From: a virus
DNA length: 49,027 bases
Strand: one strand, 5' to 3'
Virus record (IMG/VR): IMGVR_UViG_3300046525_000039
Span: 1 to 49,027 of that record
The notes under the pieces were generated by a model, which saw nothing but the letters and a program-made list of their open reading frames with translations, did not search any database and was not told where the DNA came from. The translations under genes and the position numbers were made by a program. Positions 26,145 to 45,134 of this stretch are shown here, piece after piece. Every line of letters starts with the position of its first letter. The first letter of the stretch is position 1.

Positions 26145-26367
26145 TAGGCGAGGTCGCCGCTTGCCGACATCGGTGCCTATCGATGTGGATGAGCAGTTTA
26201 TAGATAAGTTCATGGAGGGTGGATGGAAGCGGGTACAAAGCATGTGGGGAAAGCGCGCTGATGTATGGATCAGGGTGATTGGCAAGACCAAGCTCCAGGC
26301 CATGCGGCGGGAGTATCTGGCGCAAAAGGCGCAGGCGGCTACAGGCAAGCGGAGGGTTGAGTTATGA
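26125..26367 (+). CDS. Small basic protein (80 aa)
   Basis: The product is Lys/Arg-rich at both ends with a central VPIDVDEQFIDKFMEGGWKR. It overlaps the previous gene by 20 bases and the metallopeptidase gene by 4. Function is unknown. Confidence 0.58.
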   Translation: MKTKQPDRRGRRLPTSVPIDVDEQFIDKFMEGGWKRVQSMWGKRADVWIRVIGKTKLQAMRREYLAQKAQAATGKRRVEL

Positions 26368-28902: not shown

Positions 28903-28916
28903 CTGAGGGGTATAAA
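28903..28916 (+). promoter_or_regulatory. Late motif copy 1, before the portal gene
   Basis: CTGAGGGGTATAAA, 31 bases before ATG 28948. It is identical to the copies at 32014, 36931 and 45089, and the copy at 38585 matches over 13 bases. TATAAA could serve as a -10 element; no -35 is conserved. CCCCTC follows and could fold back on GAGGGG. Confidence 0.75.
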
Positions 28917-28947
28917 CCACCCTACCCCCTCGCCCTACCCTTCCGCC

Positions 28948-30441
28948 ATGACTGGTGGCCGCATTCGCTCTGTTCGCTTCAAGGATGGCTACACGGTCGA
29001 TGGCCTGAGCGCCGCGATTGGGGCAGCGTCAAACCCATATGCGCGAGCAGGAGGGCAAGGCGCCATCCTCCCCGGCATCTTCACGCACCAGCTCGCCATC
29101 GGGGCCTACATGGCGTCGGGCATGATGCGGAAGGTCATCGCGATCCCCGCTGAAGACCGAGTGCGCGAATGGCGAGACTGGCAGGCGGACGCTGACCAGA
29201 TCACCGCGATCGAAGCGGAGGAAAAGCGGCTCGACCTGATCGCCAAGGTGCAGGAGGCTGAAACCCTGCGTGGCGTCGGTGGTGGTGCGCTGGTCATCAT
29301 CACCGCGGGCAATCACGATCAGGAATTGAAGCCTGAGCAGATCGGGCCGGGTAGCATCGTCGCCATCAACGTAGTGTCGCGGTGGGAAATCACCGGAAAG
29401 GACTGGATCAAAGACCTCGCCAGCCCGCGCCATGGCCAGCCCAGGATGTGGGAGGTGAGCGGTGGCAACGGCAAGGATGCAGCCAAGAACATCCACCCCA
29501 GCCGCGTCATCTGCTTCCGTGGCCCTCGATTGCCTGCTGGTGCCACAATCTCCGACGAAGAGAAGTTCTGGGGCGATAGCAGGCTGCTGCGCGTCTATAC
29601 CGAGGTTTGCCGCTCCGATGAGACGCAGGGGTGGTTCGCGGCGCTGGTGCGCAAGGCCAAGCTGCTGCGGTTTGGGATTCCAGACCTTGATGACCGCGAT
29701 CAGGACCAGCTAGACAAGCGCATTGCCGTCATCGCGCAGGGCGAAAACTCGCTCAATGCAACGGTGTTTCGCTCGTCGGGAGGCGCGGATGATCCCGGCG
29801 AAACGATCACCGACTATCAGGTAACTTGGGCCGGCATCCCGGCGATGATGGATGCCTTCGATCAGCGCGTTTCGGCTGTTTCAGATATCCCTTTCACCCG
29901 ACTTATGGGCCGTTCGCCTGCTGGCATGAATGCCACTGGCGCCTATGATGATCTCAATTGGGTCAAGACCGTCACCACCGGCCAAAAGCTGGAGACGCGG
30001 CCATGCCTGGAGACGCTTGACCCCTTCCTGCTGCGCTCCGCTGGTGTCGATCCGGCGAAGGTGACGTGGGCGTTCGCGCCCCTATCGGTACCGACCGAAA
30101 AGGAAACCGCTGATACGTTCAAGACCACCATGGATGCAGTCGAAAAGGTGCAGGCGACGGGCGCCATCCCAGAGCAAGCATTCTCGGAGGGCTTCCAAAA
30201 CCTGATGATCGAGCGGGAGTATATGCCTGGCCTTGAGCAGGCGTTGAAGAAGATCCCCGAAAACGAGCGTTATGGCATTTCGCCAGATGGTGACGGCACT
30301 GACCCGTCCGCATTGCAGGCGACCGAAACCGACAACGGCGGAAAGGAGGCTGATCCAACATCTCCCACGGCGCGGATGCCTAGCGTAAGTCGGGCATCCG
30401 CTCGTGCGGCAAATGACGGGAAACAAACGGGGGCGGAATAA
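28948..30441 (+). CDS. Portal protein (DUF1073 family)
   Basis: The 497-residue protein forms the DNA entry ring of the head. It matches the DUF1073 portal family through GMMRKVIAIPAEDRVREWRD, the VGGGALVIIT core and the hallmark FTRLMGRSPAGMNATG near residue 320. The C-terminus is a poorly conserved acidic/Ser tail. Some databases label this family after a fused anti-CBASS domain; I see no extra domain here. It is the first gene after late motif 1. Confidence 0.93.
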   Translation: MTGGRIRSVRFKDGYTVDGLSAAIGAASNPYARAGGQGAILPGIFTHQLAIGAYMASGMMRKVIAIPAEDRVREWRDWQADADQITAIEAEEKRLDLIAKVQEAETLRGVGGGALVIITAGNHDQELKPEQIGPGSIVAINVVSRWEITGKDWIKDLASPRHGQPRMWEVSGGNGKDAAKNIHPSRVICFRGPRLPAGATISDEEKFWGDSRLLRVYTEVCRSDETQGWFAALVRKAKLLRFGIPDLDDRDQDQLDKRIAVIAQGENSLNATVFRSSGGADDPGETITDYQVTWAGIPAMMDAFDQRVSAVSDIPFTRLMGRSPAGMNATGAYDDLNWVKTVTTGQKLETRPCLETLDPFLLRSAGVDPAKVTWAFAPLSVPTEKETADTFKTTMDAVEKVQATGAIPEQAFSEGFQNLMIEREYMPGLEQALKKIPENERYGISPDGDGTDPSALQATETDNGGKEADPTSPTARMPSVSRASARAANDGKQTGAE

Positions 30442-31277
30442 TGCCCGGCTTCAATCTCGCCACCCTAGCCCGCCGCCAGCGCAACATCCGTCGCGCGTCG
30501 ATCGTCATCCGCGACATTGTGCCCCCGTCAACGCTCGCGGCAAACCTCTACCGATCATCCTATCTCCCGGTCGTCACCGCATGGTCCGCCGCCATCCCAG
30601 CCATCATGGCGGAATACGAGCGCACCCTGTCCAGCATGACGCAGGACAGTCCCGCCGACGTTCAGGCGCAGATCGATGCGGCCGATGGCGCGTTGCAACG
30701 TCTCCTGCTCCTGCTCAGCCCCGAAATCCGCGATTGGTCGTGGTCGATCGAGCGCTGGTATCGCGGGCGCTGGCGTGGCGCTGTGCTGGCTGCGACCGGC
30801 GTGGATTTGCAGACCATTATCGGGCCGGAGGGCGCACAACAGCCGGTGGAAACGGCGATCCAGTGGAACGTCAATCTGGTGGCTGATGTTTCCTCCCAGG
30901 TGAAGCAGCGGATCAGCAATGCCGTGTTCGACGGCCTGCGGAACCGGACGCCTGCGCGAGAGGTGGGCAAGGCGATCAACGAAGCGGTTGGATTGGGGCG
31001 TGATCGCAGTCAGCGGAACGCGGCTGACCAGCTCACGAAGTTGACCAACTCGCTGGCCGATGAGCGCAGGCGAGAGGCTGGCATTGACACATGGAAGTGG
31101 CGATGGAGCCGCAAGCTACATGGCCGCAAAGAGCATATTGCCCGCGATGGCAAGGAATATGCTGATACGGCATCGGGGGCGGACGAGGCGCAGGACATAT
31201 TGCCACCGCCGAAGGATAGGCCGGGGCAGTTGCCATACTGCGGGTGCCGTTCGCAAAGCGTGGTGCGGTTCGACTAG
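30441..31277 (+). CDS. Minor head protein (Mu F / SPP1 gp7 family)
   Basis: The 278-residue protein has the C-terminal signature of phage head morphogenesis proteins (WKWRWSRKLHGRKEHIARDG and then RPGQLPYCGCRSQSVV). Such proteins sit inside the head near the portal and may be ejected with DNA. It overlaps the portal stop by one base. The gap after it (31278-31361) holds a hairpin GCGGTG..CACCGC without a T-run. Confidence 0.88.
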   Translation: MPGFNLATLARRQRNIRRASIVIRDIVPPSTLAANLYRSSYLPVVTAWSAAIPAIMAEYERTLSSMTQDSPADVQAQIDAADGALQRLLLLLSPEIRDWSWSIERWYRGRWRGAVLAATGVDLQTIIGPEGAQQPVETAIQWNVNLVADVSSQVKQRISNAVFDGLRNRTPAREVGKAINEAVGLGRDRSQRNAADQLTKLTNSLADERRREAGIDTWKWRWSRKLHGRKEHIARDGKEYADTASGADEAQDILPPPKDRPGQLPYCGCRSQSVVRFD

Positions 31278-31361
31278 CAACGACTCGCCGGGAATGCTAG
31301 GTTACGGGCCAGCGGTGTTAGCGCACCGCCGACCCTGACCAACACCGCATTGGAGTGCGAT

Positions 31362-31535
31362 ATGGCTTGGACTGCATTTAGCGCAGAAGCGATCGACCTG
31401 AAACTGAAAGTCCTGAAGCTGGAGCGTGAAGGGCGCTTGAGCGAAGCGACGGACGCGATTTGCACGGCGCTTGAAAAGGCGCGCCGCGAAGGACCATCCG
31501 GCGAAACTTACGAAGAGTTCGAGGCGCGCGCATGA
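31362..31535 (+). CDS. Small helical protein (57 aa)
   Basis: GGAG stands 6 bases before ATG 31362. The product is helical and charged (AIDLKLKVLKLEREGRLSEA). It belongs to a three-gene block inserted between head genes. Function is unknown. Confidence 0.6.
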   Translation: MAWTAFSAEAIDLKLKVLKLEREGRLSEATDAICTALEKARREGPSGETYEEFEARA

Positions 31536-31798
31536 CTCCTATCGAGCGCGTCGCGCGGGCAATTTGTCGGGAGCGTGACCCTGATGACATTGGCGGAGGC
31601 GCGCACCCGATGGGCCAATGGCTTGATGAGGGTGAGCTATGGTGGACCGGCTATGCGGATACTGTCCGCGCCGTCCTCACCGCGATCCGCGAGCCGAGTA
31701 AGGCGGTGGAGAAAGCTGGCATGGACGCTGCTGGCGGAGACGGCGCTGTTTTGGCTGGATACGAAGCCATGATCGACGCCATGCTGGATGAAGGGTGA
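31532..31798 (+). CDS. Hypothetical protein, 'ERVARAI' family (88 aa)
   Basis: It begins IERVARAI and ends YEAMIDAMLDEG, like the early-region protein at 9424-9813. Occurrence of one family in both the early and late arms is unusual. Function is unknown. It overlaps neighbours by 4 bases and 1 base. Confidence 0.65.
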   Translation: MTPIERVARAICRERDPDDIGGGAHPMGQWLDEGELWWTGYADTVRAVLTAIREPSKAVEKAGMDAAGGDGAVLAGYEAMIDAMLDEG

Positions 31799-31992
31799 TG
31801 GGTTGCAACCACATTAGCGCCAGTGAGCGAGATCGACGCCGCGCTATAAGGGGTGAGATGTTCGCTGCACTGAATAAAGAGAGGCAAGCCGAAATTCGTC
31901 AAGTCCAACGTGACAAGCGATTTGCGATCTTGGCGCTTTTGAGTTCGCTTGGGTGTATCGCGATCAGTATCATCGCCATCTGCCTCCCGTAG
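31798..31992 (+). CDS. Small protein with C-terminal membrane anchor (64 aa)
   Basis: ATG shares a base with the previous stop (TGATG). The N-terminal part is charged (RAIRGEMFAALNKERQAEIR) and the last 20 residues form a hydrophobic helix (ALLSSLGCIAISIIAICL). This tail-anchored layout suggests attachment to the inner membrane. It may be a moron product; function is unknown. Confidence 0.6.
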   Translation: MGCNHISASERDRRRAIRGEMFAALNKERQAEIRQVQRDKRFAILALLSSLGCIAISIIAICLP

Positions 31993-32013
31993 AGCCTTAC
32001 CCTAATCCATTCC

Positions 32014-32027
32014 CTGAGGGGTATAAA
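32014..32027 (+). promoter_or_regulatory. Late motif copy 2, before the DUF2213 gene
   Basis: CTGAGGGGTATAAA, 32 bases before ATG 32060. CCCTC follows directly, so GAGGG..CCCTC could form a small hairpin with TATAAA in the loop. Confidence 0.75.
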
Positions 32028-32059
32028 CCCTCTCGCCTGCCCTGCCTATCGTGCGGGCC

Positions 32060-33187
32060 ATGTTGTTTTCGGACGCCCTCACTCTTGATGCACCGCGCCG
32101 CACCAGTGACGGCTATATGGCTGTCCGTGCAAAGGCCGCGCGCACTGGCGTCTATCAATATGGCGGCCGTGAGGTCGATCCAGACAACAAGCACGGCCTG
32201 CGCGACACAGATGTTGTGCATGTCCTGCGTGATGAGGAAGCCGTTTTCGACAAGAAGGCTGCGCATAGCTTCATCGGCAAGCCGATCACCGACAACCATC
32301 CATCGGTAGCCGTCAACGCCTCCAACTGGCGCGATCATGCGCGCGGTGTGGTCATGGGCGCCATCAAGGAGGGTGACTATCTCGCCTTCGACCTGATGCT
32401 GACCGACGCAGCGACGATCGATGCGGTGAGCAACGGCAAGCGCGAATTGTCCAACGGCTATGCGGCTGAACTGGAGTTCGGCTCCTTCACCGCGAACGAC
32501 GGCACGGTCTGTCAGGCCCGCCAAGTGTCGATCGCGGGCAACCATGTGGCGATCGTTGACAAGGGGCGGGCTGGATCAGCCTGCGCCATCAGTGATTCCG
32601 TCGCCCTCTGCGATTCCCTCCCCTCAAACATCATCGATTCCCTCACCAAGGAGAAGCCCGTGAAGACCATGCTGATCGACGGGCTGACCGTCGATGTGTC
32701 CAATGCCGATACGGCAATGGCGACCATCACCACCCTCATTGCTGCGCGCGACGCTGCCACCGGCAAGGTGGCCGGCCTGGAAACGCAGGCTGTCACGGAC
32801 GCCGCCGCGATCGTCGCGAAGGACGCGGAAATCGTAAAGCTGACCGCCGACCTCGCCGCTGCCAAACCGACGCTCCAGCAGCTTCGGGACGCTGGCAAGG
32901 CGTTCGCCGTGATCGAAGGCAAGGCCAAGGCTGTTGGCGTGGCCGTCACCGACGCGATGGACGAAACCGCCATCATGAAGGCTGTCGTGGACAAGCAGAT
33001 GCCCGGCAACACCTATGTCGGTGACCACATCAAGATCGCGTTCGACACGCTGACCAAGGATGTGAAGGTCGCGGATCAGGTGGTGCAGCCGCTTGGGACG
33101 CCTACCTTCGCCAACGACGCCGCCTCGATCGAGGATGCCGCCTATCAAAGCATGGTCGCCCGCCTCACCGGCAAAAAGACCGCATAA
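32060..33187 (+). CDS. DUF2213 prohead protease/scaffold-type protein
   Basis: The 375-residue protein (ATG 32060; GTG 32051 also possible) has an N-terminal DUF2213 domain (GVYQYGGREVDPDNKHGLRD, HSFIGKPITDNHPSVAV, ELSNGYAAELEF, GNHVAIVDKGRAG). Its helical C-terminal half (AATGKVAGLETQAVTDAAAI) resembles a scaffold. In this gene order it likely matures the capsid and is fused to its scaffold. An internal GTG near 32660 could give scaffold alone, as in other protease-scaffold fusions. Confidence 0.85.
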   Translation: MLFSDALTLDAPRRTSDGYMAVRAKAARTGVYQYGGREVDPDNKHGLRDTDVVHVLRDEEAVFDKKAAHSFIGKPITDNHPSVAVNASNWRDHARGVVMGAIKEGDYLAFDLMLTDAATIDAVSNGKRELSNGYAAELEFGSFTANDGTVCQARQVSIAGNHVAIVDKGRAGSACAISDSVALCDSLPSNIIDSLTKEKPVKTMLIDGLTVDVSNADTAMATITTLIAARDAATGKVAGLETQAVTDAAAIVAKDAEIVKLTADLAAAKPTLQQLRDAGKAFAVIEGKAKAVGVAVTDAMDETAIMKAVVDKQMPGNTYVGDHIKIAFDTLTKDVKVADQVVQPLGTPTFANDAASIEDAAYQSMVARLTGKKTA

Positions 33188-33200
33188 GGAGGATTGAGCC

Positions 33201-33653
33201 ATGCCCCCGCTACAGACCGTTTTCACCGATCGCCCTGCCGCTTATGCAAAGGGTCGCCGCGTCAACATGGAAGAATGGAACACTCTGACCGGGCTTGCCC
33301 AGGTGGCCGGCATCGGCATCGGAGAGCCGGTCCAGGACGGCACGACTGGCGAGCAGGTTGCTCCGTTCACGTCCGGCAAGTTTCGCGGCATCACGGAATG
33401 GACGCCCGATACAACCGAGGCGGGCGGCTTCCCCATCAACGCCAATACGCCCGTTTGTGAAAGCGGCGTGATCGGCGGCGCTGCATACCAGACCTGCACC
33501 AAGCGGACGCCGGTATACTGGAATGCCGCCAACAAGGGCTACACCAGTACGGTCGGGTCCAACACGCTGATCCCCAATGCCGAGTTCGACGCAACCGTGT
33601 CGGCAGGCGGGATTGTCCCCATCCGCGTCCGTCGCATCCCGCCCGCCGCGTAA
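33201..33653 (+). CDS. Head decoration / structural cement protein
   Basis: A perfect AGGAGG precedes the ATG. The 150-residue, beta-rich protein (AQVAGIGIGEPVQDGT, SGKFRGITEWTP, VSAGGIVPIRVRRI) stands between the protease and major capsid genes, the usual slot for decoration proteins. Family resemblance is to DUF2190-like proteins but is not certain. Confidence 0.75.
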   Translation: MPPLQTVFTDRPAAYAKGRRVNMEEWNTLTGLAQVAGIGIGEPVQDGTTGEQVAPFTSGKFRGITEWTPDTTEAGGFPINANTPVCESGVIGGAAYQTCTKRTPVYWNAANKGYTSTVGSNTLIPNAEFDATVSAGGIVPIRVRRIPPAA

Positions 33654-33668
33654 TCGGAGTCCTAATCG

Positions 33669-34652
33669 ATGAACATCAACATGCAGGACGCGGCGCAGGT
33701 CTTCAGCTTCGCCACCCAGGCAAGCCGACTGGTCAACACCCGCGTCTATGAGATCGAATATCCCGAAATGGATATTGCATCCCTCGTGACTGTCGATACC
33801 AGCCTACCCGAATGGGTGAGCGGCATTGACACTCTGATCGGCGATAAGCTCGGCAAGGCTGAATGGCAGTCGGGTTCGGCCAAGGATATCCCGCTGGCCG
33901 AAGTCAACCTGAACAAGGTGGGCCTCGACTTCGACATGTATGCGATCGGCTATCAGTGGAACATCGAAGAGCTGGGCAAGGCGCAGTTTCAGGGCTTTCC
34001 ACTGACCGAGCGCAAAGCCGCCGCTGCGCGCTTCGGCTCGCAGGTGTTCATGTGGGACAACCTGCTGATCGGATCTGCCGTCAAGGGCTGGACTGGCCTG
34101 GTCAACAGCACCTACGTCACGCCGACTGCGCTGCCCGCCGATGGCACTGACACCACTTCGGCGTGGGTGCTGAATAATGGCGCCGGCAACAAGACTCCGG
34201 TGCAGATCGTGCGTGATGCCAATATCCTTCTGCTCGGCGCACCTGGTCCTGGCCGCGTCATCAAGAACACGCTGCTTCTGCCTGACGCTGCGCTGGATTA
34301 CATGGTCGCCACTCCGTTCGGCGTGACCAGCCCGAACATGTCGATCATGCAATATCTGATGGCGAACAACGAATATACGCGCCGGACTGGACAGCCGCTC
34401 GTCATTCGCTCGCTTGACGAATTGAAGAACAAGGCGACTGTCGGGATCGCTGGTGGTGGTCGCGCGGTCGCCTACCGCAACGACCCCGACATGCTGAAAC
34501 TGTGGATGCCGATGCCCTACCGCTTCCTGCCGACCTATCAGGATGGCCCGCTGAACTTCACTGTTCCCGGCATTGCTCGCACCGGTCCGCTGGATATTCA
34601 GCGTCCCAACGCGATCAGCTATGGCGATGCAGTCACGCCGGTTCCTGCCTGA
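33669..34652 (+). CDS. Major capsid protein (DUF2184 family)
   Basis: The 327-residue protein matches DUF2184 capsid proteins, which have the HK97 fold: EIEYPEMDIASLVTVDTSLP, then SAKDIPLAEVNLNKVGLDFD, the helix LTERKAAAARFGSQVFMWDN and the C-terminal MPMPYRFLPTYQDGPLN. It is placed between decoration and connector genes and followed by a strong terminator, consistent with a very abundant message. Confidence 0.94.
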   Translation: MNINMQDAAQVFSFATQASRLVNTRVYEIEYPEMDIASLVTVDTSLPEWVSGIDTLIGDKLGKAEWQSGSAKDIPLAEVNLNKVGLDFDMYAIGYQWNIEELGKAQFQGFPLTERKAAAARFGSQVFMWDNLLIGSAVKGWTGLVNSTYVTPTALPADGTDTTSAWVLNNGAGNKTPVQIVRDANILLLGAPGPGRVIKNTLLLPDAALDYMVATPFGVTSPNMSIMQYLMANNEYTRRTGQPLVIRSLDELKNKATVGIAGGGRAVAYRNDPDMLKLWMPMPYRFLPTYQDGPLNFTVPGIARTGPLDIQRPNAISYGDAVTPVPA

Positions 34653-34676
34653 TATTTCGACAGTCGGAGCATCTGA

Positions 34677-34705
34677 GGCCCGCCTTTAATCGGGCGGGCC
34701 TTTTT
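34677..34705 (+). terminator. Rho-independent terminator after the capsid gene
   Basis: An 8-bp GC-rich stem (GGCCCGCC with GGCGGGCC) is followed by TTTTT. It lies 25 bases after the capsid stop. It would make capsid mRNA more abundant than that of the genes beyond. Confidence 0.93.
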
Positions 34706-34719
34706 GTTGGAGCGGTGAA

Positions 34720-34902
34720 ATGCACGAAATCAAAAACCTGACCAATTCTCCATATGACCTCGAAACGGCCAATGGATCAGTGCGACTACCAGCCATGGGG
34801 TCAATCAAGGAAGAGTTCAGCCCAGGATATCTGGAAGCCCTCAAAAGCGCTGGAATGTTTGTGGTGACCGAGGTTGTCAGCAAGAAGCCAAGCAAGCCGT
34901 GA
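34720..34902 (+). CDS. Small head-tail protein (60 aa)
   Basis: The product is beta-rich (EIKNLTNSPYDLETANGSVR, FVVTEVVSKK) and contains the FSPGYLEALKSAG motif seen in small proteins following capsid genes. It probably assists capsid or connector assembly. It joins the next gene by TGATG. Confidence 0.65.
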   Translation: MHEIKNLTNSPYDLETANGSVRLPAMGSIKEEFSPGYLEALKSAGMFVVTEVVSKKPSKP

Positions 34903-35297
34903 TGCCCTACGCCCGCCTCCCCGTCGCCAATTTCAAGGCGCTCTATCCGCAGTTCTCCACCTTGACGGACGCGCAGTACGACGCCTGGGCGGCCAAGATC
35001 GAACCGAAAATAACCGATCGCTTCGGCGACGACTGGCAGGACGCGACGGAATTGTTTCTGGCCCACACGCTGGCGATCAATGGCGTTGGCACTGGCGCGG
35101 CGGGCGGCATGGCGCTGAATGGCGCAACCTCGTTCGATAGCGGCGACTTCAAAATCCAGCTTTCCAATGACATCGTTTCCGGGCGCGCCAAGGGCGGATT
35201 GAAGACCACGGTCTACGGCCAGCAGTTCCTCGCCCTGCAACGGAAATACGTCGACACGATCCGGCTCGTCGGCTTCATTGATCCAGGCTGTTGCTGA
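34902..35297 (+). CDS. Head-tail adaptor (DUF4054-like)
   Basis: The 131-residue protein begins YARLPVANFKALYPQFSTLT and contains ELFLAHTLAINGV and YGQQFLALQRKYV, the pattern of DUF4054 adaptors that form the ring under the portal. Gene order agrees. Confidence 0.83.
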   Translation: MPYARLPVANFKALYPQFSTLTDAQYDAWAAKIEPKITDRFGDDWQDATELFLAHTLAINGVGTGAAGGMALNGATSFDSGDFKIQLSNDIVSGRAKGGLKTTVYGQQFLALQRKYVDTIRLVGFIDPGCC

Positions 35298-35677
35298 TGG
35301 ACTTTTCCGGCCTCTACAGCCAGTTCGCCACGATGTTCGCTGAGGATGGCGATGGTCCGTTCTGGCCCGCCCGCATCCTGTCGCAGGGCAAGATGGCGTT
35401 TGACAACGGCGGTTCGATCATCCCGTCCCAGACCAGCCCATGGCTGCGCGATTGCGTGGTTCAGGTCGATAGCGCCGATACCGCCATGCGTTCGCAGCAG
35501 GGATTTGCGGAGACGGATCGCCGCATGATCGTGCCTGCCGGGTCGATCCAGGGGCCGATCAGCACCGACATGCGCATTGAAGTCCGTAGCGGGCCGTTCG
35601 CCGGGATGTGGAGCATTGAGGCGATGGCGCAGAATGCCGCAGCTTCTCAGTGGGTTTTGCGGGGTAGGAAGGGGTAG
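35297..35677 (+). CDS. Head-tail connector protein
   Basis: The 126-residue product (ATG 35297, TGATG overlap) is beta-rich with RMIVPAGSIQGPISTDMRIE and FAGMWSIEAMAQNAA. The position between the DUF4054 adaptor and the gp10-like gene suits the stopper. No firm family. Confidence 0.7.
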   Translation: MDFSGLYSQFATMFAEDGDGPFWPARILSQGKMAFDNGGSIIPSQTSPWLRDCVVQVDSADTAMRSQQGFAETDRRMIVPAGSIQGPISTDMRIEVRSGPFAGMWSIEAMAQNAAASQWVLRGRKG

Positions 35678-36105
35678 TGGCTCGCTCCCGCATGATCGGT
35701 GCTAAGGCGCACATCGCCCGCCTACGCAAACTCTCTGGTTCGGACATGGAGCGCGCGGTTGGCAAGGCACTATTCGCTGCGGGCGAGGCAATACAGGTCA
35801 AGGCGCAGGTTTCCATCACCAGCGGGTCGGTATCTGGCAGGAACCACGTGCCGTCAAAGCCCGGCGAGCCGCCTAACCAAGACACCGGCACTCTCGCGAA
35901 CAATATCGAAACGGTCCAGCTTAAGCCGCTATTGGTCGAAGTCAGCAGCAACGCGCCGTATTCAGCGGCGCTGGAGTTCGGATCGAGCAAGGTTGCGGCC
36001 CGCCCTTTCATGGTCCCGGCCCGCGATGCCAAGCGGAAAGAGGCCGAACAACTAGTCAAGAACGCCGTCGCGGCTGTCGTGCGGCGCAGCAGGACGAAAG
36101 GATAA
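35677..36105 (+). CDS. HK97 gp10-like tail-completion protein
   Basis: The 142-residue product has the gp10 family features: a basic N-terminus, HVPSKPGEPPNQDTGTLAN, VSSNAPYSAALEFG and ARPFMVPARDAKRKE. Such proteins connect the tail to the head. GTG start sharing a base with the previous TAG. Confidence 0.9.
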   Translation: MARSRMIGAKAHIARLRKLSGSDMERAVGKALFAAGEAIQVKAQVSITSGSVSGRNHVPSKPGEPPNQDTGTLANNIETVQLKPLLVEVSSNAPYSAALEFGSSKVAARPFMVPARDAKRKEAEQLVKNAVAAVVRRSRTKG

Positions 36106-36108
36106 GCT

Positions 36109-36348
36109 ATGCCCTGGATAACGATAAAAGAGCCTTGGACCCATGTCGAAAGCATCATGCAGACGACGGTTTACCAGCCCGGCAAGCACAATGTGACGGC
36201 TGATATCGAGGCCGCTTTCAAAGCAAGGACGAATAATGGCGACGCTGATCATCCCGACCAGGCGAGTGGTTCTATCAGCGTTGAAGGGGGCGACGGCGAT
36301 CACAGCGATAGTGCCAGCGAAGGACATCTATCCACAGACGACGCCTGA
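36109..36348 (+). CDS. Hypothetical protein overlapping the tail-completion gene
   Basis: The first 43 residues (WITIKEPWTHVESIMQTTVY, then GKHNVTADIEAAFKA) look like a real compact protein. The remaining 36 residues lie in DNA shared with the gene at 36236 in another frame and are Asp/Ser/Gly-rich. Probably a short protein whose tail is an overlap extension. Function is unknown. Confidence 0.55.
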   Translation: MPWITIKEPWTHVESIMQTTVYQPGKHNVTADIEAAFKARTNNGDADHPDQASGSISVEGGDGDHSDSASEGHLSTDDA

Positions 36349-36688: not shown

Positions 36689-36703
36689 CGGTATCGTGCG
36701 CCG

Positions 36704-36934
36704 ATGGCCGATATCTCCGAGCGCATGTTGGGCGCATTTCTGATCCAGATGATGCGAACCGGTGCGGTCGATGAGACTGATATAGCGGAGGCCGCTGAGG
36801 CACTGGACGCCAAGGGTGATGAAGACGCGGCCCATGCCATGCGGTGCCTGATCCTGCGGGCGAACGAGACGCCGGATTCAGAATGGCAGGCCCAGCAGCG
36901 CCGCGACCGTTTCCGGGTAATCGATCCAGACTGA
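36704..36934 (+). CDS. Hypothetical protein (76 aa)
   Basis: A helical acidic protein (ERMLGAFLIQMMRTGAVDET, DIAEAAEALDAKGDED). It lies between tail-completion and tail-tube genes. Its TGA is the TGA inside late motif copy 3. Function is unknown. Confidence 0.62.
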   Translation: MADISERMLGAFLIQMMRTGAVDETDIAEAAEALDAKGDEDAAHAMRCLILRANETPDSEWQAQQRRDRFRVIDPD

Positions 36935-36944
36935 GGGGTATAAA
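36931..36944 (+). promoter_or_regulatory. Late motif copy 3, before the tail tube gene
   Basis: CTGAGGGGTATAAA, 53 bases before ATG 36998. The TGA in the motif is also the stop of the upstream gene. CCCCT/CCCTC pyrimidine runs follow downstream. Confidence 0.75.
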
Positions 36945-36997
36945 CGGAAGCAGCGCTATCCCCTACCCTCCCGCCTTATCCACGCGGGAGATTTTGC

Positions 36998-37447
36998 ATG
37001 TCGCTGCCAACCGAAGCCGATTTCGCCGTCATTAAGGTAGGTAACGGCGCCACCCCAACCGAAGTCTTTGCGGCTGTCTGCGGCATTGAAAATGTGTCGG
37101 CCAACAAGGTCGCCAACGCCAACGACCGCTATCGCCGAGACTGCACCAAGCTGGGTCAACCAGCGATCCGCAAGAATCGCGTGATCGGCAAATCGCTGAC
37201 AGTGACCGGCTCTGGCGCGATGAACATCGCCAATTTCGAGCAGTTCGATGAACTGCTTGGCGTCCCCAATAATTATCAGATCGAATTTCGCCAGGCCGAT
37301 GGGACCGATGGCGGCGTACTGCTTGGAACCTATGGCGGCTCCTATGTGATGGTCGCCGATAATGTCAGCACCGACATCAACGGCGAAAGCAGCGGCGAAC
37401 TGACGCTGAACAACGAAGGGCCGTGGACCTGGACGCCGGCACCTTAA
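36998..37447 (+). CDS. Major tail tube protein
   Basis: The 149-residue, beta-rich product (GNGATPTEVFAAVCGIENVS, KSLTVTGSGAMN, GGVLLGTYGGSYVMVADNVS, SGELTLNNEGPWTWTP) resembles siphovirus tail tube proteins, which polymerise around the tape measure. It stands before the frameshifted chaperone and has its own late motif, consistent with high expression. Confidence 0.87.
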   Translation: MSLPTEADFAVIKVGNGATPTEVFAAVCGIENVSANKVANANDRYRRDCTKLGQPAIRKNRVIGKSLTVTGSGAMNIANFEQFDELLGVPNNYQIEFRQADGTDGGVLLGTYGGSYVMVADNVSTDINGESSGELTLNNEGPWTWTPAP

Positions 37448-37450
37448 CCC

Positions 37451-37885
37451 ATGGACACGTTCATCGTCCGTGATTTCGGGCCGGGGAAATTCCGGTTCGG
37501 GTTCAATCTACCGCAGGTTTTCGAACTGGAGCGCGGGCCGGATGCGTTCCGCCATTCTGGCATTTATCCCAAGCCGATCGGCCAGATGTATGAGCAGCTT
37601 TGCAAGGCCGTTGGACTGCAAGGCGAAGATCAGACGCCGGTATGGCTTGGCGGCGCTGATATCCTCGTTCAGGACGTGCGTGAGATCATCCGCCTTGCTC
37701 TGATCGGCGGCAACTCCTGCCTGATCGACGGGCAGGAAAGCGATGTGGGACCAGCGCGGGCCATTGATCTGGTCAATACCTACGTCTTTCCGGTTCGCCC
37801 ATTGGAAGAGGGCGTGATGCTCGCTTGGGCAATCCTTTACGCTGCTCACAAAGCCATCATCGTAAAAAAAAACGTAACGGGATAG
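37451..37885 (+). CDS. Tail assembly chaperone, short (G-like) form
   Basis: The 144-residue product helps load tail tube subunits onto the tape measure. It begins TFIVRDFGPGKFRFGFNLPQ and contains MYEQLCKAVGLQGE. It ends just after a run of nine A where ribosomes can slip -1 into the next frame, giving a longer form (to 38094). The arrangement equals lambda G/GT. The gene resembles the GTA gp10-type chaperone of alphaproteobacteria. Confidence 0.85.
   Translation: MDTFIVRDFGPGKFRFGFNLPQVFELERGPDAFRHSGIYPKPIGQMYEQLCKAVGLQGEDQTPVWLGGADILVQDVREIIRLALIGGNSCLIDGQESDVGPARAIDLVNTYVFPVRPLEEGVMLAWAILYAAHKAIIVKKNVTG
37867..37873 (+). promoter_or_regulatory. -1 ribosomal frameshift site A AAA AAC
   Basis: In the zero frame the codons read GTA AAA AAA AAC, so the heptamer A-AAA-AAC is in the canonical X-XXY-YYZ phase. 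Slipping -1 continues into RNGIGSADPVPLDKG and on to the stop at 38094. The zero frame stops 10 bases later at TAG. Confidence 0.85.
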
Positions 37886-38094
37886 GCAGCGCTGATCCGG
37901 TGCCGCTCGATAAAGGGCGCACGATCGTCAATTGTGGTGAGATGGGGCTAGATTATCGCACAGCCACGATGGGCGATTATTTCGAGGCGGTGGAGGCCAA
38001 GATCGAAATGAACGACCCCAAGAGCGCGAACAAACCTATGGCGTCTCCGGGCGGGTCTGAGATGCTCAGGCGGGCTATGGAGGCGGTGAGTTAG
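37874..38094 (+). CDS. Tail assembly chaperone, -1 extension (T-like)
   Basis: These 73 codons are read after the slip and make a fusion of about 214 residues from 37451. The extension contains MGLDYRTATMGDYFEAVEAK, typical of the T domain that contacts tail tube protein. An independent ATG at 37825 exists in this frame, but its first residues are the shadow of the G gene, and no SD supports it. Confidence 0.82.
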
Positions 38095-38097
38095 GGA

Positions 38098-38154
38098 CTA
38101 GTCACGCTCCAGTCCTTTCTCGACCAAGCGGCGTATGGCTTCGGATCTGCCGCC
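38098..38154 (-). pseudogene. Possible remnant of a ribbon-helix-helix gene
   Basis: After the TAG stop of the minus-strand gene at 38155, the same frame continues for 18 codons as GGRSEAIRRLVEKGLERD and then stops. RSEAIRRLVEKGLE is the helix-2 pattern of CopG/Arc-type repressors. No strand or helix 1 is found upstream in any frame. It could be a decayed antitoxin, or a readthrough extension of the gene before it. Confidence 0.4.
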
Positions 38155-38361
38155 CTATTCTCTTATGCCTCGAATGACGTTGCGCGCGGTAGTTAGAGCT
38201 GCGCGATAAGCCGGTTCTACGGCGGGCCGACTTGCAAGCTCTATCATGTATTGATCGATCCGATCGGCAATACCCTCACCGCCAGGGCTGCGATTCAACA
38301 GGTCGATCAGCGCCGTTACCAACATGAGTGCAGCCGCGCCGTCGTGCTGATTCTCGTCCAT
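38155..38361 (-). CDS. Small helical protein on the opposite strand (68 aa)
   Basis: It is oriented against the tail operon. The product is helical (AAALMLVTALIDLLNRSPGG, ADRIDQYMIELASR). It follows the membrane protein at 38363 by one base, so the two form a minus-strand pair. Function is unknown. Its frame continues after the stop into an RHH-like stretch. Confidence 0.6.
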   Translation of the reverse strand: MDENQHDGAAALMLVTALIDLLNRSPGGEGIADRIDQYMIELASRPAVEPAYRAALTTARNVIRGIRE

Positions 38362-38362
38362 T

Positions 38363-38575
38363 TTAATCCTTCCGCATGGCCGCTAAATGGTCGTTGATAG
38401 AAATCAACACCGCCGAAATGCCAGTTACACCGACCGTCATGGCGATAATCACCAGCGCCGCCAATGGCCCTTGGCCGCCTGCGTCAATCAGCACTGCAAC
38501 CACGGCGAGCAGCGCGCCGATCACGAACGCAAAGCCGATCATCCCTCGATAGAAATCGACAATCAACTTAATCAC
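38363..38575 (-). CDS. Two-helix membrane protein on the opposite strand (70 aa)
   Basis: GTG 38575 is preceded by a perfect AGGAGG with a 6-base gap, the best ribosome site of the region, which decides the start; the frame itself is open to 39130. Two hydrophobic helices (FAFVIGALLAVVAVLIDAGG and ALVIIAMTVGVTGISAVLI) are followed by a short charged end. Together with 38155 it is a moron-like insert between the chaperone and tape measure genes. Confidence 0.72.
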   Translation of the reverse strand: MIKLIVDFYRGMIGFAFVIGALLAVVAVLIDAGGQGPLAALVIIAMTVGVTGISAVLISINDHLAAMRKD

Positions 38576-38584
38576 GCGCGCCTC

Positions 38585-38597
38585 CTGAGGGGTATAA
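38585..38597 (+). promoter_or_regulatory. Late motif copy 4, before the tape measure gene
   Basis: CTGAGGGGTATAA (the 14th base is T instead of A), 32 bases before ATG 38630. It abuts the reverse-strand SD of the membrane gene (38582-38587), so the two features share bases. CCCTC follows downstream. Confidence 0.72.
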
Positions 38598-38629
38598 TGA
38601 CCGGTATAGCGCCCTCGTAGCATGGGGCT

Positions 38630-40999
38630 ATGCCGGAAATCGACCCTGTAACAGTCCAGCTTCGCGCTGAGTTTGCGAAATATCGCGCGGACATGGAGCA
38701 GACCGCCCGGCGCGTAGAGGCCAGCCTTAACCTTCAAGAGCGATCCATCATCCGCCTTGAAGGGCAAATGGACAAGGGTTTTACGCGGATCGGTGCGCAT
38801 GCCGCGCGCGGGGCAGCGGCAATAAGGGGCGCTATTGGATCGATCGGCCTTATCGCATTGGGCGCTCAGGCGGTTGAGACGGCTCTTCGATTTCAGCGGT
38901 TTGAAAAAGGATTGGAGATTGCGACGGGGTCCGCGTCGCAGGCGGCTGATGAAATAAAGTTCCTGCGCGACATGGCCGATACTCTCGGCGTCCGGTTCAT
39001 CACCTTGGCAGAGAATTTCACGGGACTCGCCGCGGCTGCGCGCGGGACCGCGCTGGAGGGCAAGGCCACTCGCGATGTTTTTGAGGCTGTAACCAAAGCC
39101 ATCGTGGCCACGGGCGGATCGACCGAGCAAGTCAACGGCGCGCTGTTGGCTGTCCAGCAGATCATGTCAAAAGGCACCGTTTCGGCAGAAGAATTGCGGG
39201 GCCAGCTCGGCGAGAGACTGCCAGGCGCATTCCAGATTGCCGCGCGCGCCATGGGCGTCACTACCGCGGAATTGGGCAAATTGCTGGAAAAGGGTGACGT
39301 AGCCTCCACCGACTTCCTGCCCAAATTTGCAGATCAGCTAGGCAAGGAACTGCCGGCCAATCTGCAAACGGCCGACGCCGCATTCCAGCGCTTCCAGACC
39401 GCCTTGGACGATGTAGCCAATAGCACGGCGGACGGCTTCATGAAGGAGTTGGGCGACGCAACCGACGACCTCACGCAAACCCTTAAGGAAATGCAGCAGA
39501 GCGGTGCACTGGAGGCTATCGGTTCGTTCCTTGGCGAAGTCATCCGGCTTGGTGGTGGTGCGGCGAGCGCCATAGGTGATTTGGCCTTGGCCTGGAAGAA
39601 ATGGCGTCTTGAAGTAGGTGTAAGGCAACAGCAAAATATTGAAAGCGGATGGCTTACATCTGCGGCTGATAAGGATCAGGCTCGCCGCAACCGGAGCGCG
39701 CTCGAAGCCGAACTTATCCGCATGTCGGGCAAGGCCAAGCCATCGTTCGCGCAAGGCTCGCTGGATTACTTGGACGCCATCATAAAACGGCAAGGGGCTG
39801 GCGGTGGCGTGGCGGCGTCATCCTCTGGCGCAGGGAAGAAAAAGAGTGGAGGGACCAAGAAGTCCCCTCTCGATCCCGAAGCGTTCGCGCGCGAGGAAGC
39901 CAACCTCAACGACCAAATCCTGCGCCTCAAATCAGACGATGCGCAGACTGCGGAACAGCGCGCAGAGGTCGAGAATACCCGTGTCGAACAGGCCCGACTT
40001 GCCGCCAACGCCGATGTTGAAGCGGACAAGCGCTATACCAGTGCACAGAAGCAGAAGATCGTTGCCCTGAACGATCAGGTGGCCGCCCTTGAGGTGGCCA
40101 AGATTGCCTATGAGCGTGACGCTGAAATCGCCAAGCGCACATATGAGCTGGAGTCGGACGCCAACCGCAACGCGCAGGATCTACTCCAGAGTCAATCAGA
40201 CATAGCCACTACCCGATCGCAGCAGTTCGAGATTGAGAAGCGCATCCTGAAATTGCGTCAGTCTCAGGAGCGCGCTGAATATGAGCTTCTGCTGAAAAGT
40301 AGGGACGCGCCCGATCGTGACCGGGGCCGCGCTGGCTTGGCGCAGATCGACAAGAAATTCGCCAATCAGAATGAGGCGCTGGACCGCAAATATGAATCGC
40401 CTCTGGCAGCTTACTCCCGGCGCCTGAACGAGGCCGATGTTCCCGATCTGGTCGAGCAGTATGCGGTGCAGCAGTTGGATTACGTCCACGACACCTTGCG
40501 CGACGCCATCACGAAGAAGTTGGGCATCAAAGACCCGTTCTTGGCCGGAATCATCGATCTGTTCATTCAGCAGGCGATCATAAAGCCATTAGCGAATGCG
40601 ATGTCGCAGGCGGGTGGTGGAGGCGGCGGGATCGGAGGCCTCCTCACCAGCGTCGGTACCGCGATCTTCGGGCGAGCATCTGGTGGGCCAGTAGCGCCGG
40701 GGCAATTGGTCCGCGTCAACGAAGCTGGGTCAAGCGGAAGGGTGGAAGGCTTCCGTCCATCTGGCGGCGGCGACATCATCCCACTTGGGCGGATGAATGC
40801 AGCTTCGCGCGGCACCACCACCACAATCCAGCCCATAATCCAAGTAGACGCCCGCGGTGCGGTCATGAACGACCAGTTCGCGAAGATGATCCTAAGCCAA
40901 GCGAACCAGGCTGCGGCCGGGATGGTAGGAGCAGGCGCGAAGGCCATCAACGCCAACATCCCGAACCGCCTGTCTCAATATAGCAGGGACGGCACCTGA
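38630..40999 (+). CDS. Tape measure protein
   Basis: The 789-residue protein sets tail length. The N-terminal half has the tape-measure domain (FQRFEKGLEIATGSASQAAD, EIKFLRDMADTLGVRF, GTVSAEELRGQLGERLPGAF). The C-terminal half is coiled-coil (AQTAEQRAEVENTRVEQARL) and then a Gly/Ala-rich end with a hydrophobic patch. By the usual about 0.15 nm per residue the tail would be near 120 nm. It is the longest gene and has its own late motif. Confidence 0.93.
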   Translation: MPEIDPVTVQLRAEFAKYRADMEQTARRVEASLNLQERSIIRLEGQMDKGFTRIGAHAARGAAAIRGAIGSIGLIALGAQAVETALRFQRFEKGLEIATGSASQAADEIKFLRDMADTLGVRFITLAENFTGLAAAARGTALEGKATRDVFEAVTKAIVATGGSTEQVNGALLAVQQIMSKGTVSAEELRGQLGERLPGAFQIAARAMGVTTAELGKLLEKGDVASTDFLPKFADQLGKELPANLQTADAAFQRFQTALDDVANSTADGFMKELGDATDDLTQTLKEMQQSGALEAIGSFLGEVIRLGGGAASAIGDLALAWKKWRLEVGVRQQQNIESGWLTSAADKDQARRNRSALEAELIRMSGKAKPSFAQGSLDYLDAIIKRQGAGGGVAASSSGAGKKKSGGTKKSPLDPEAFAREEANLNDQILRLKSDDAQTAEQRAEVENTRVEQARLAANADVEADKRYTSAQKQKIVALNDQVAALEVAKIAYERDAEIAKRTYELESDANRNAQDLLQSQSDIATTRSQQFEIEKRILKLRQSQERAEYELLLKSRDAPDRDRGRAGLAQIDKKFANQNEALDRKYESPLAAYSRRLNEADVPDLVEQYAVQQLDYVHDTLRDAITKKLGIKDPFLAGIIDLFIQQAIIKPLANAMSQAGGGGGGIGGLLTSVGTAIFGRASGGPVAPGQLVRVNEAGSSGRVEGFRPSGGGDIIPLGRMNAASRGTTTTIQPIIQVDARGAVMNDQFAKMILSQANQAAAGMVGAGAKAINANIPNRLSQYSRDGT

Positions 41000-41559
41000 T
41001 GGCCGTCTATCGCGAAAGCTTCATCGCTTATATTGACTGTGACCCGCCTGCTTTGCTGCACGGCGGGTTCGGGCCGCTGATGGTCCCTGCCGATGCCATC
41101 ATTCCCTCGGACACGATCGCGCTAGGCGGCGGTGAGCTGGTGGCGGTCCCAGACTGGCAAGTTCTGGTCAACGGGACGACCGAACGCATCGACCTAACCC
41201 TGAGCGGAGTTTCAGATGAAATCGCCCGGCTAGTTATGGAGGACGCGCCGTCCGTCCGCGGGGCAGATGTGGATGTCGGGATTATCCGCTATGCGCAGGA
41301 CTGGAGCATCGCGAGCATATCCTGGGAAAACAGGTTCGAAGCACGCTCACTGACCATCAGCCGGCCGCAAGAGCAGAATGGTTCGGTCATCCGCTCGATC
41401 ACGCTTTCGATCGTTCATGGTGACAGCGCCCGCGCTCGCTCGCCCAACAGCTATTTCACCGATGCGGACCAGCGCCGGAAGCATCCGACCGATGCCATAT
41501 TCAGCAATGTCGGTGGCATGATGGCGGGGACCAGTCGCCGGTTCGGGCCAAGCGAATGA
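40999..41559 (+). CDS. Tail protein downstream of tape measure (distal tail type)
   Basis: The 186-residue protein contains LIVNG-like beta segments, SISWENRFEARSLTISRPQE and the C-terminal RSPNSYFTDADQRRKHPTDA with SNVGGMMAGTSRRFGPSE. This pattern is common in sphingomonad phage tails, and gene order suggests the distal tail ring. Overlaps neighbours by 1 and 4 bases. Confidence 0.75.
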   Translation: MAVYRESFIAYIDCDPPALLHGGFGPLMVPADAIIPSDTIALGGGELVAVPDWQVLVNGTTERIDLTLSGVSDEIARLVMEDAPSVRGADVDVGIIRYAQDWSIASISWENRFEARSLTISRPQEQNGSVIRSITLSIVHGDSARARSPNSYFTDADQRRKHPTDAIFSNVGGMMAGTSRRFGPSE

Positions 41560-41960
41560 TCCATCTAGGCCAATGGTTGCGCGAGAATGCCACGCGCGTT
41601 CGGGATGCTGGCGCATGGGATTGCAGCACATTCCCCGCGGCCTGGGTGATGGCCAACGGACTGCCTGATCCGATGGCTCAATGGCGCGGGCGCTATGACA
41701 CAGAGGAAGCGGCGCTTGCCCTGATCGACGGGCAAGGCGGATTGCCTGCGCTGTTCAGCAGGGCGATGTCGGGCATCGATGCGCCCCTCAATCGCGGTGA
41801 ACCTGTGGCTGGCGATATCGGCCTGGTCGCCATTTACGGACTGGAGGCCGGCGCTATCTTCACCGGGAAGCGTTGGGCCTTCGTGACGGATCGCGGCATG
41901 GCCTTCGTCACCATCGCGCCGGAACATATAGTCGCGGCATGGAGCCTCCCCCATGGGTAA
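41556..41960 (+). CDS. DUF6950 / NlpC-P60-like tail tip protein
   Basis: The 134-residue protein has WDCSTFPAAWVMANGLPDPM with a possible nucleophilic cysteine (Cys23), RYDTEEAALALIDGQGGLPA and VAGDIGLVAIYG, the DUF6950 pattern related to NlpC/P60 peptidases. In tails such proteins may open peptidoglycan at infection, but the catalytic His is not obvious. Confidence 0.75.
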   Translation: MIHLGQWLRENATRVRDAGAWDCSTFPAAWVMANGLPDPMAQWRGRYDTEEAALALIDGQGGLPALFSRAMSGIDAPLNRGEPVAGDIGLVAIYGLEAGAIFTGKRWAFVTDRGMAFVTIAPEHIVAAWSLPHG

Positions 41961-43926
41961 GGCTTTGGGTCGCATCGTCGCCGTTGTCACGTCGCCTTTG
42001 ACGCTGATCGACCGCGGGCTAGGTAACTTGGTCCGACAGGTAGGCTTCATGGTGGTGGGCAACGCGATCGGCGGCCCAATCGGCTCGGCAATAGGCGGCG
42101 CAATCGCTGGTGGCATCGCGTCCATCACCGCGCCGCCGCCACCTAAGCCGGAAGCGGCGTCAACCTCGCTTAAAACGTCTCGCCCATCGCGCATCGGCGG
42201 TTATGGTCGTTCGCGGCTGTACGGTGCTCAAATCCTCTATGAGACGGGACCGAACGGCGCGGCCATCGATGGCTTTGCGGTCCACGACGGAATGATGACC
42301 GCACCTGTCACCTTCTATATTGGCGACGACAAGGTGACGTGGAAGGGAGGCGTCAGCTATCCGGGCGGCTACGTCAACGGGCTGGACGACGGCCGCTATG
42401 GCGACGACACGACTCGCTTCTACTACACCGATGGGCGGACCCCTGGCACGACCGTCCCGCTGATCGAGAGCGAACTACCCGGCGTTTGGACGAGCAATCA
42501 TCGTGGCGATGGCGTCTGCCTGATCTACACCCGATTCGCCTCGGTCAAATCCAAGAACTTCCTCAAGCGCTTTCCGAACGGTGCGGCAATTCCGTCGATC
42601 GTCGCCGACTGGCAGAAATGTCCAGATCCTTGGGCGGCCGATCCTTGCGACGATGGCGAATGGACTTGGACAGAAAACCCCGTCCGCCAGCTCATGCACT
42701 ATATCCTTGTGCGTGAGGCTCCAAAGCCGACCGTCAATCACGACGATCCGGGCTATGCCGCCGAATTGATGGCTTTGCGGATCGCCTATTACAACCGCAA
42801 GATCGCCCCTTCCCTTTCGACCTGGCGGGCGGCCTCCGATGTCTGCGATGAAGCCGTTGCACTGAAAGCTGGCGGCACGGAGGCGCGCTATCGGTCGTGC
42901 CTATCCCATTATCTCACCTCTCCGCATGGCGAGGTAAAGGCGGGCCTGCTGGCGCTGTGCGACGGCTGGATGGCAACGCAGGCAGACGGCTCGCTGGCAA
43001 TCTATGCAGGCAAATATACCGATCCGACTGTCACCATCGGACCCGACCATATCATTTCCTACGAATGGCAGGGGGTTGGTGTTGATGACGACAGCGCGGT
43101 CAATGAAATCGTCTGCTCCTATGTCTCTGACGCCCACGACTATAACAGCGTCGAATGCGATGCGTGGCGCGATGAGGATGATATTGCAGAGCGCGGGACG
43201 CTACTCTCCGACACGCTGGACATGCAAACGCCTTCCTGGGGCCAAGTGCGCCGGATCGCAAAACGCCGCATGGGCCGCACAAATGCGGCGTTTCGCGGGA
43301 CGGTAACAACAAATATAGCGGGCCGGATCGCTCGCAACCAGCGCTATATCAATCTGCTTATCGAAGAAGCGGGCGCGACATTTTTTGATGGCGTTGCAGA
43401 AATCATATCGGTTTCGCGAGATGCTGGAACGGGCGGCATAGCCTTCTCATGGATCGCCGCAGACCCGAACATAGACGCCTGGAACCCGGCAACCGAAGAA
43501 GGCAATCCGGCAGCGGTGGGCGATCGCGTCGCCCCTACTCCGCTGGAAACGCCGACGATCACCAGCGCGGAACTGGACTATTCGGACAGCAGCGGAACCG
43601 ACAGCGCCGGCGCGCGCGTGCGCATCATCGCAGCCGGCCCGGATCGCGAAGACCTGACATGGTACGCGCGCTGGAAAACCTCCACCGGATCAGTCTGGAA
43701 CGAGCAGGAATATAGCGACACAGACCCCGGCGCAGCGGTCGATTTGCTGACCGGCTTCGTCCCGACCGACGCTATGATTGATGCCGAGGTCGCCTATCAG
43801 GTGGGCGACGGCCGCGTCTCCGACTGGTCCACCACGGCGACCGTGGATACCACCCTTATCACCCTTGTCGCTGACGATGGCGACACCCTCCTTGCCGGTG
43901 ACGGCTCCATTCTTTTGGCGGGATAA
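41953..43926 (+). CDS. Tail tip / host-specificity hub protein (J-like)
   Basis: The 657-residue protein begins with a Gly-rich hydrophobic region (MVVGNAIGGPIGSAIGGAIA) and then SRIGGYGRSRLYGAQILYE and VTFYIGDDKVTWKGGVSY, typical of tail tip hubs in GTA-like phages. The middle has a tail-tip domain with RTPGTTVPLIESELPG, and the end is made of beta/fibronectin-like repeats (TITSAELDYSDSSGTDSAGA). It links the tail tube to the receptor-binding proteins. Confidence 0.85.
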   Translation: MGKALGRIVAVVTSPLTLIDRGLGNLVRQVGFMVVGNAIGGPIGSAIGGAIAGGIASITAPPPPKPEAASTSLKTSRPSRIGGYGRSRLYGAQILYETGPNGAAIDGFAVHDGMMTAPVTFYIGDDKVTWKGGVSYPGGYVNGLDDGRYGDDTTRFYYTDGRTPGTTVPLIESELPGVWTSNHRGDGVCLIYTRFASVKSKNFLKRFPNGAAIPSIVADWQKCPDPWAADPCDDGEWTWTENPVRQLMHYILVREAPKPTVNHDDPGYAAELMALRIAYYNRKIAPSLSTWRAASDVCDEAVALKAGGTEARYRSCLSHYLTSPHGEVKAGLLALCDGWMATQADGSLAIYAGKYTDPTVTIGPDHIISYEWQGVGVDDDSAVNEIVCSYVSDAHDYNSVECDAWRDEDDIAERGTLLSDTLDMQTPSWGQVRRIAKRRMGRTNAAFRGTVTTNIAGRIARNQRYINLLIEEAGATFFDGVAEIISVSRDAGTGGIAFSWIAADPNIDAWNPATEEGNPAAVGDRVAPTPLETPTITSAELDYSDSSGTDSAGARVRIIAAGPDREDLTWYARWKTSTGSVWNEQEYSDTDPGAAVDLLTGFVPTDAMIDAEVAYQVGDGRVSDWSTTATVDTTLITLVADDGDTLLAGDGSILLAG

Positions 43927-43931
43927 AGACC

Positions 43932-45092
43932 ATGGCTGCTGCCTTCTTCACGACCGAATATCCCAAACTGGCGGCGATCAACTCGCTGACATGGGCGGCG
44001 AACAAGTTCCTGTTGTTCACTGGCGCAGGCGACGTTGCGGCAGGCGATATAACGGCAGCGGGCCTGGCGCTTCTGGACGATGCTGATGCAGCCGCTCAGC
44101 GTGTGACGCTAGGCGCGCTTGGGAGTAGTGGCGGGCAGAAGATCAGCGTGGCCGGCTCGCTCACAGATCCAGGCTTCGGCCTGTCCATCCTCAGCAATGC
44201 CAATGTGAACGTTGGCACGGTATCGGACGGCGGAAATCCATCCATCCGGGCTGATGCCTATGGTGGCGGAATCCCATCGCTGCGTATCTATCGGGCGACC
44301 GGCACCCAAGCCAGCCCTGCGGACATAACCACCAATGATGTGTTCGGCGATGTCAGCGGATATGGCTGGCGCGATGGCGGGTTCGTCCAGCTATCCCGCA
44401 TCCGCTCGACCTTCACCAGCGCCAGCCCAAGCTCGACCAATCGCGCTGTGTCGGTTGGCATATCAGGTTGCCGCGACGGGAGCGCATCGCTCGCTACGTT
44501 CATGAACATCACATATCTCCAGACGACTTTTTCCGGGTCGCTGGCGCCGATGACGGACAACGCGAATACGAATGGCTCGGCGTCCTTCCGCTGGTCGGTG
44601 GTCTATGCTGGAACCGGCACGATCAACACCTCCGACGAGCGGGTGAAGCGCGACTTCTCTGCCATCTCTGATAACCTGCTCGACGCCTGGGCGGGCGTTG
44701 AGTGGGTGCAGTATCGCTTTTCCGATGCCTACGAGACGAAGGGCGATCAGGCGCGCTGGCACATGGGGTTGGTCGCGCAGCATGTCCGTGACGCGATCGA
44801 CAATCAGATGGGCGAAGGTTCCGCCGTCCGACTAGGCCTCGTATGCTATGACCAATGGGACGCGCAGGACGAGGTGACGCAGCCCGTCATCGCCGAACGC
44901 GATGTCAAAGTGGGGCGCGGCAAGAAGGCCAAGTTCGTCACCGAAAGCTATGACACCGGCGAAGTGGAGGTGATCCAGGCCGCGCGCGAGGCCGGCGACC
45001 GTTGGGGCCTGCGCTACGAGGAATGTTTTGCCGTAGAGGCGGCCTATCAGCGCCGACGAATGGACCGAATAGAGGCGCGCATGGCGGGCTGA
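43932..45092 (+). CDS. Tail fibre with S74 intramolecular chaperone
   Basis: The 386-residue fibre has a beta-rich body (QKISVAGSLTDPGFGLSILS) and a C-terminal peptidase-S74 domain: INTSDERVKRDFS with the self-cleavage Ser234, then YRFSDAYETKGDQARWHMGL, VAQHVRDAI. The chaperone folds the trimer and cuts itself off. The gene ends in the TGA of late motif copy 5. Confidence 0.92.
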   Translation: MAAAFFTTEYPKLAAINSLTWAANKFLLFTGAGDVAAGDITAAGLALLDDADAAAQRVTLGALGSSGGQKISVAGSLTDPGFGLSILSNANVNVGTVSDGGNPSIRADAYGGGIPSLRIYRATGTQASPADITTNDVFGDVSGYGWRDGGFVQLSRIRSTFTSASPSSTNRAVSVGISGCRDGSASLATFMNITYLQTTFSGSLAPMTDNANTNGSASFRWSVVYAGTGTINTSDERVKRDFSAISDNLLDAWAGVEWVQYRFSDAYETKGDQARWHMGLVAQHVRDAIDNQMGEGSAVRLGLVCYDQWDAQDEVTQPVIAERDVKVGRGKKAKFVTESYDTGEVEVIQAAREAGDRWGLRYEECFAVEAAYQRRRMDRIEARMAG

Positions 45093-45102
45093 GGGGTATA
45101 AA
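45089..45102 (+). promoter_or_regulatory. Late motif copy 5, before the appendage gene at 45135
   Basis: CTGAGGGGTATAAA, 32 bases before ATG 45135. The TGA is the stop of the fibre gene. Unlike the other copies, no CCCTC follows, so the hairpin is not a constant part of the element. Confidence 0.75.
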
Positions 45103-45134
45103 GCAGTGCCGCCGATAAACCTACGTTTGCGGCC

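Follow-up and report, generated by a model that had tools for sequence, protein, structure and literature searches.

The five identical 13-base words in the late region of this temperate phage are probably the upstream elements of five activator-dependent late promoters, four of them predicted to give leaderless mRNAs. The window, by which we mean the whole 49,027-base virus record analysed, contains CTGAGGGGTATAA as an exact match five times and on the plus strand only (Table 1), as an earlier note on this DNA had reported, and a further A follows the word in four of the five copies. No other 13-mer has five plus-strand copies in the window, and 60 order-1 Markov sequences contained no 13-mer in more than three copies, in keeping with the earlier view that so many copies are not expected by chance. 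Counted from the final base of the word, the start codon's A lies 33, 34, 55, 33 and 34 nt further on at the successive sites, with ATG 32060 taken as the protease start. The gene assignments made in the earlier note also hold: the words precede the genes for the portal, the head maturation protease (its DUF2213 gene), the major tail protein, the tape measure and a distal-tail-type protein.

Table 1. Predicted promoter elements, the late genes that follow them, and the two candidate recognition proteins (window coordinates).
Feature	Position	Strand	Remark
Upstream word, portal promoter	28903..28915	+	exact CTGAGGGGTATAA
Upstream word, protease promoter	32014..32026	+	exact CTGAGGGGTATAA
Upstream word, tail-tube promoter	36931..36943	+	exact CTGAGGGGTATAA; includes TGA stop of gene 36704-36934
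Upstream word, tape-measure promoter	38585..38597	+	exact CTGAGGGGTATAA
Upstream word, distal-tail promoter	45089..45101	+	exact CTGAGGGGTATAA; includes TGA stop of gene 43932-45092
-10-like hexamer TACCCT	28936..28941	+	6 nt before ATG 28948
-10-like hexamer TATCGT	32047..32052	+	7 nt before ATG 32060
-10-like hexamer TACCCT	36964..36969	+	28 nt before ATG 36998; leader with GGAG
-10-like hexamer TAGCAT	38618..38623	+	6 nt before ATG 38630
-10-like hexamer TACGTT	45122..45127	+	7 nt before ATG 45135
Portal gene	28948..30441	+	predicted leaderless; no Shine-Dalgarno
Head maturation protease gene	32060..33187	+	start ATG 32060 preferred over GTG 32051
Major tail (tube) gene	36998..37447	+	leadered, Shine-Dalgarno GGAG before ATG
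Tape-measure gene	38630..40999	+	predicted leaderless
Distal-tail-type gene	45135..45815	+	predicted leaderless
A186, ParB/Noc-type HTH-like protein	25584..26144	+	neighbour of B80, possible partner
B80, 80-aa three-helix protein	26125..26367	+	best candidate for word-reading late activator

The word does not stand alone. Exactly 20 nt beyond its last base lies a second element, TAnnnT, which the first reading of the sequence overlooked and which is present at all five sites: in every copy T stands at base 21 after the word, A at base 22 and T again at base 26. The combined pattern TATAA-N20-TAnnnT occurs in the window five times, at precisely these sites, against an expectation of 0.07, and none of 100 shuffles reached five. 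The hexamer ends 6-7 nt before the start codon at four sites and 28 nt before it at the tail-tube site. These properties agree with those of sigmaA promoters in Zymomonas, a member of the Sphingomonadales, where the -10 element is TANNNN, the -35 element TTGNNN and the modal discriminator 6 bp, and where leaderless transcripts occur (PMC7566282). A -35 TTG some 17 nt upstream of the -10 is absent, TAAACC-like bases occupying that place, and a consensus scan recovers none of the five sites; there is instead a conserved box in place of the -35 element, at fixed spacing from the -10, as in MotA-dependent promoters. Because the downstream hexamer fits the alphaproteobacterial sigmaA -10 (TANNNN), a placement of CTGAGGGGTATAA across the -35 region, from about -45 to about -33, fits the sequence. 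The TATAA within the word, which the earlier note had taken for the -10, would thus be displaced from that role by the TAnnnT 20 nt downstream.

In the mechanism we propose, TAnnnT would serve as the -10 for the host's RNA polymerase and its housekeeping sigma factor. A phage DNA-binding protein on the 13-bp word would make up for the absent -35 contact, in the manner of MotA at the middle promoters of T4. For the portal, protease, tape-measure and distal-tail genes the transcript would begin on the ATG or about one base away from it, as a leaderless late mRNA that alphaproteobacterial ribosomes would translate, and the tail-tube promoter would yield a short leader with a Shine-Dalgarno sequence. 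The likely recogniser of the word would be B80, whose gene lies just upstream of the terminase genes.

Leaderless transcripts are proposed because Shine-Dalgarno sequences are absent and because the -10 lies so close to the ATG; the start codon, or a base beside it, appears to be the 5' end of the mRNA at four sites out of five. Among the relatives, a Shine-Dalgarno match of at least 4 nt precedes none of 45 promoter-led portal genes and 8% of the protease genes; the corresponding frequency in background sequence is 26%, and it reaches 100% at the tube gene and 52-87% at the capsid gene. In Caulobacter, 375 leaderless messages are on record (PMC4117421). For the protease, ATG 32060 is chosen over GTG 32051 on the strength of the promoter distance and of the relatives. 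With +1 at the ATG, as predicted, transcripts from a given promoter would not include its word.

A search with the portal protein led to 73 related loci, and a search of related phages for the motif had been among the checks suggested in the earlier note. The layout proved to be conserved and the word to be re-spelled by lineage, a different word standing at the same place in most of the 73 loci; this lends support to the earlier idea of a late-transcription signal recognised by an activator or some other protein of the phage. Among the 45 portal promoters that were scored, the word-to-TA distance is 20 in all but one, and every ATG begins 32 or 33 nt beyond the word. One such word, GACRGCGGTAA, has 55 plus-strand as against 2 minus-strand occurrences in a set of 57 loci. 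De novo clustering of the words lying 20 nt before TA, with none of the known words supplied, recovers the lineage words, including ACGACGGTAA, CTGACGGAGGTAA and ACCAGCCGTAA, whose TA lies at +20 or nearby. Locus G001 carries four copies of the window's own site (word A) ahead of the same kinds of gene, L187 and L188 have ACCAGCCGTAA, and the L189 group has CCGTCCGTAG. A weak -10 is seen throughout the L189 group's sites, and also at the portal promoter of 'Synechococcus phage' Ssp-JY40, whose word is GCGGCGGGAA. An exact 14-mer scan of viral contigs gave mostly chance matches in AT-rich contigs and was useful only for G001 and L062; four matches from a genome pattern scan were judged, from their low GC and context, to be chance.

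A degraded relative in a Novosphingobium replicon (Sphingomonadaceae) retains related late genes and a GACGGCGGTAA-type site before the tube gene, and a sphingomonad host is consistent with the data for this reason. The records L225 (PP438430.1) and OM868076.1, labelled as Synechococcus phages, encode relatives of the portal protein and of A186 that belong to this alphaproteobacterial-type group. Among these phages Ssp-JY40, which is 62.8% GC and contains an integrase gene and repressor-like genes, also has B80 and promoters with its own word; the Synechococcus host label may reflect a co-cultured heterotroph.

Could a phage-encoded alternative sigma factor, like gp47 of phage 7-11, read both elements? 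The late promoters of 7-11, GTAAtg-(16)-aCTA, are read by a phage sigma factor; the commonest layout among our relatives, GTAA-N20-TA, has their geometry, and phiEco32 and 7-11 promoters are likewise conserved in place and not in sequence (PMC8948821). In contrast to those phages, the words here diverge within one family, and no sigma or RNA-polymerase domain was found among the window proteins scanned against Pfam, although a diverged sigma factor could escape such a scan and some small ORFs lay outside it. Moreover, a TAnnnT followed by 6 nt of discriminator is already consistent with the host sigma factor. We regard a phage sigma factor as unlikely, the result of the domain scan being our reason for preferring an activator that works with the host sigma.

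Which protein, then, reads the word? That it is encoded by the phage we infer from the spacing, which is kept while the word changes among related phages. Two non-structural families are widespread upstream of the terminase genes, among the families compared, which comprise part of all genes: A186, in 41 loci, and B80, in 50, the latter including word-bearing loci without detected A186. The predicted structure of B80 consists of three helices (mean pLDDT 78.6, core near 90). Since no significant family or fold match was found for it in Pfam, PHROG or solved structures, it is the three-helix model that suggests DNA binding. No match to a B80 profile was obtained in 385 alphaproteobacterial genomes, in a scan that had no positive control, and single-protein scans for close relatives of B80 and A186 confirmed none.

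Natural mosaics favour B80 as the reader of word A. When the window is compared first with G001, which has the same word, and then with L147, which has a different one, the values are 0.35 and 0.34 for the N-part of A186, 0.60 and 0.62 for its C-part, and 0.72 and 0.43 for B80. G001 had been predicted from its word-A promoters to carry a word-A-type B80, and does so; G001 and L062 are nearly identical in this region and are not independent. A186 is itself mosaic: between G001 and the L189 group, identity is 96-97% in the N-part and 34-42% in the C-part; the junction is seen in L228, L189, L190, L192 and L193. The two tests of covariation are less favourable to B80. Controlling for portal distance lowers its Mantel correlation with the word from r 0.15 to 0.04 (p 0.31), and CTGACGGCGGTAA is common to loci with very different B80 helices. 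In the nearest-neighbour comparison B80 outperforms TerL (p 0.013) and the protease, and does not differ significantly from the portal, MuF or A186.

It is doubtful, on the other hand, that A186 recognises the word, alone or together with B80. The A186 model matches ParB, Noc and SopB DNA-binding domains (probability up to 1.00, E about 0.08), and with portal distance controlled its Mantel correlation with the word, 0.225 (p 0.017), is better than that of B80. Against this, A186 is undetected in promoter-bearing loci of word types C and B', and its HTH part is 97% identical in G001 and L189, whose words are unrelated. Because the Mantel test backs A186 and the nearest-neighbour test ties the two, we put the chance that B80 is the late activator reading the word at about even.

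The resemblance of A186 to ParB, and the overlap of some words with gene ends at mosaic module borders, might suggest sites of another kind, namely parS-like partition sites, recombination boundary sequences or RNA-processing hairpins, but this is very improbable, since the 20-nt spacing to TAnnnT, the distance to the ATG and the single orientation, fixed across lineages, are properties of promoters. The partition-site reading is disfavoured on these grounds. Partition relies on a ParB with a CTPase domain and on a palindromic parS; A186, at 186 aa, shows a ParB-HTH-like fold only, and the word is by inspection not palindromic. The CCCTC that the earlier note proposed to pair with GAGGG is present after several copies, but lies in a C-rich spacer or in the TACCCT hexamer, and a hairpin or RNA-processing role is discarded because relatives re-spell the word and retain TACCCT, so that the pairing is lost.

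The activator-dependent promoters that we favour are well known as a kind, and the earlier description of the signal as novel stands for this family in the literature searched. Small phage activators such as Mu C, P2 Ogr and similar proteins turn on several late promoters; unlike these, B80 matches no family. As in the MotA/AsiA-dependent middle promoters of T4, a phage box in the -35 region is combined with a -10 for the host holoenzyme (PMC6755090), but the MotA box is centred at -30, and here the genes are late, the starts are predicted to be leaderless, and no MotA or AsiA homologue was identified. GafY/GafZ of the Caulobacter GTA cluster likewise provide an alphaproteobacterial phage-like activator that works with RpoD at a degenerate -35; GafY differs in that it binds far upstream (about -123 to -113), needs IHF, and serves a single main promoter with a long leader (PMC11150451).

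Other genes in the window may be mentioned here. On the minus strand are a BstA-like abortive infection protein (17033-18016; phrog_6287, E 8e-83) and a Lar-type restriction alleviation protein domain (7729-8085; PF14354). On the plus strand are C-5 cytosine and N6/N4 DNA methyltransferase domains in the early region (19914-20663 and 21349-22053) and a GapR-like DNA-binding protein (22850-23107; PF10073), which also occurs in 17 related loci.

Finally, the layout offers a readable late-promoter code for a large and almost unstudied group of alphaproteobacterial temperate phages, and one that corrects gene starts. Leaderless mRNAs for virion genes, if confirmed, would be notable in that phage structural genes are mostly assumed to be initiated through Shine-Dalgarno sequences. 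The related loci also provide natural activator/operator pairs in which to see how the specificity of a regulator and its many operators change together. A bolder reading, to which we give somewhat less than an even chance, is that B80 founds a hitherto unrecognised family of small phage late activators, in which DNA specificity diverged repeatedly while the layout, with its leaderless structural mRNAs, was kept; each lineage would then have rewritten the word before its portal, protease, tube and tape-measure genes.
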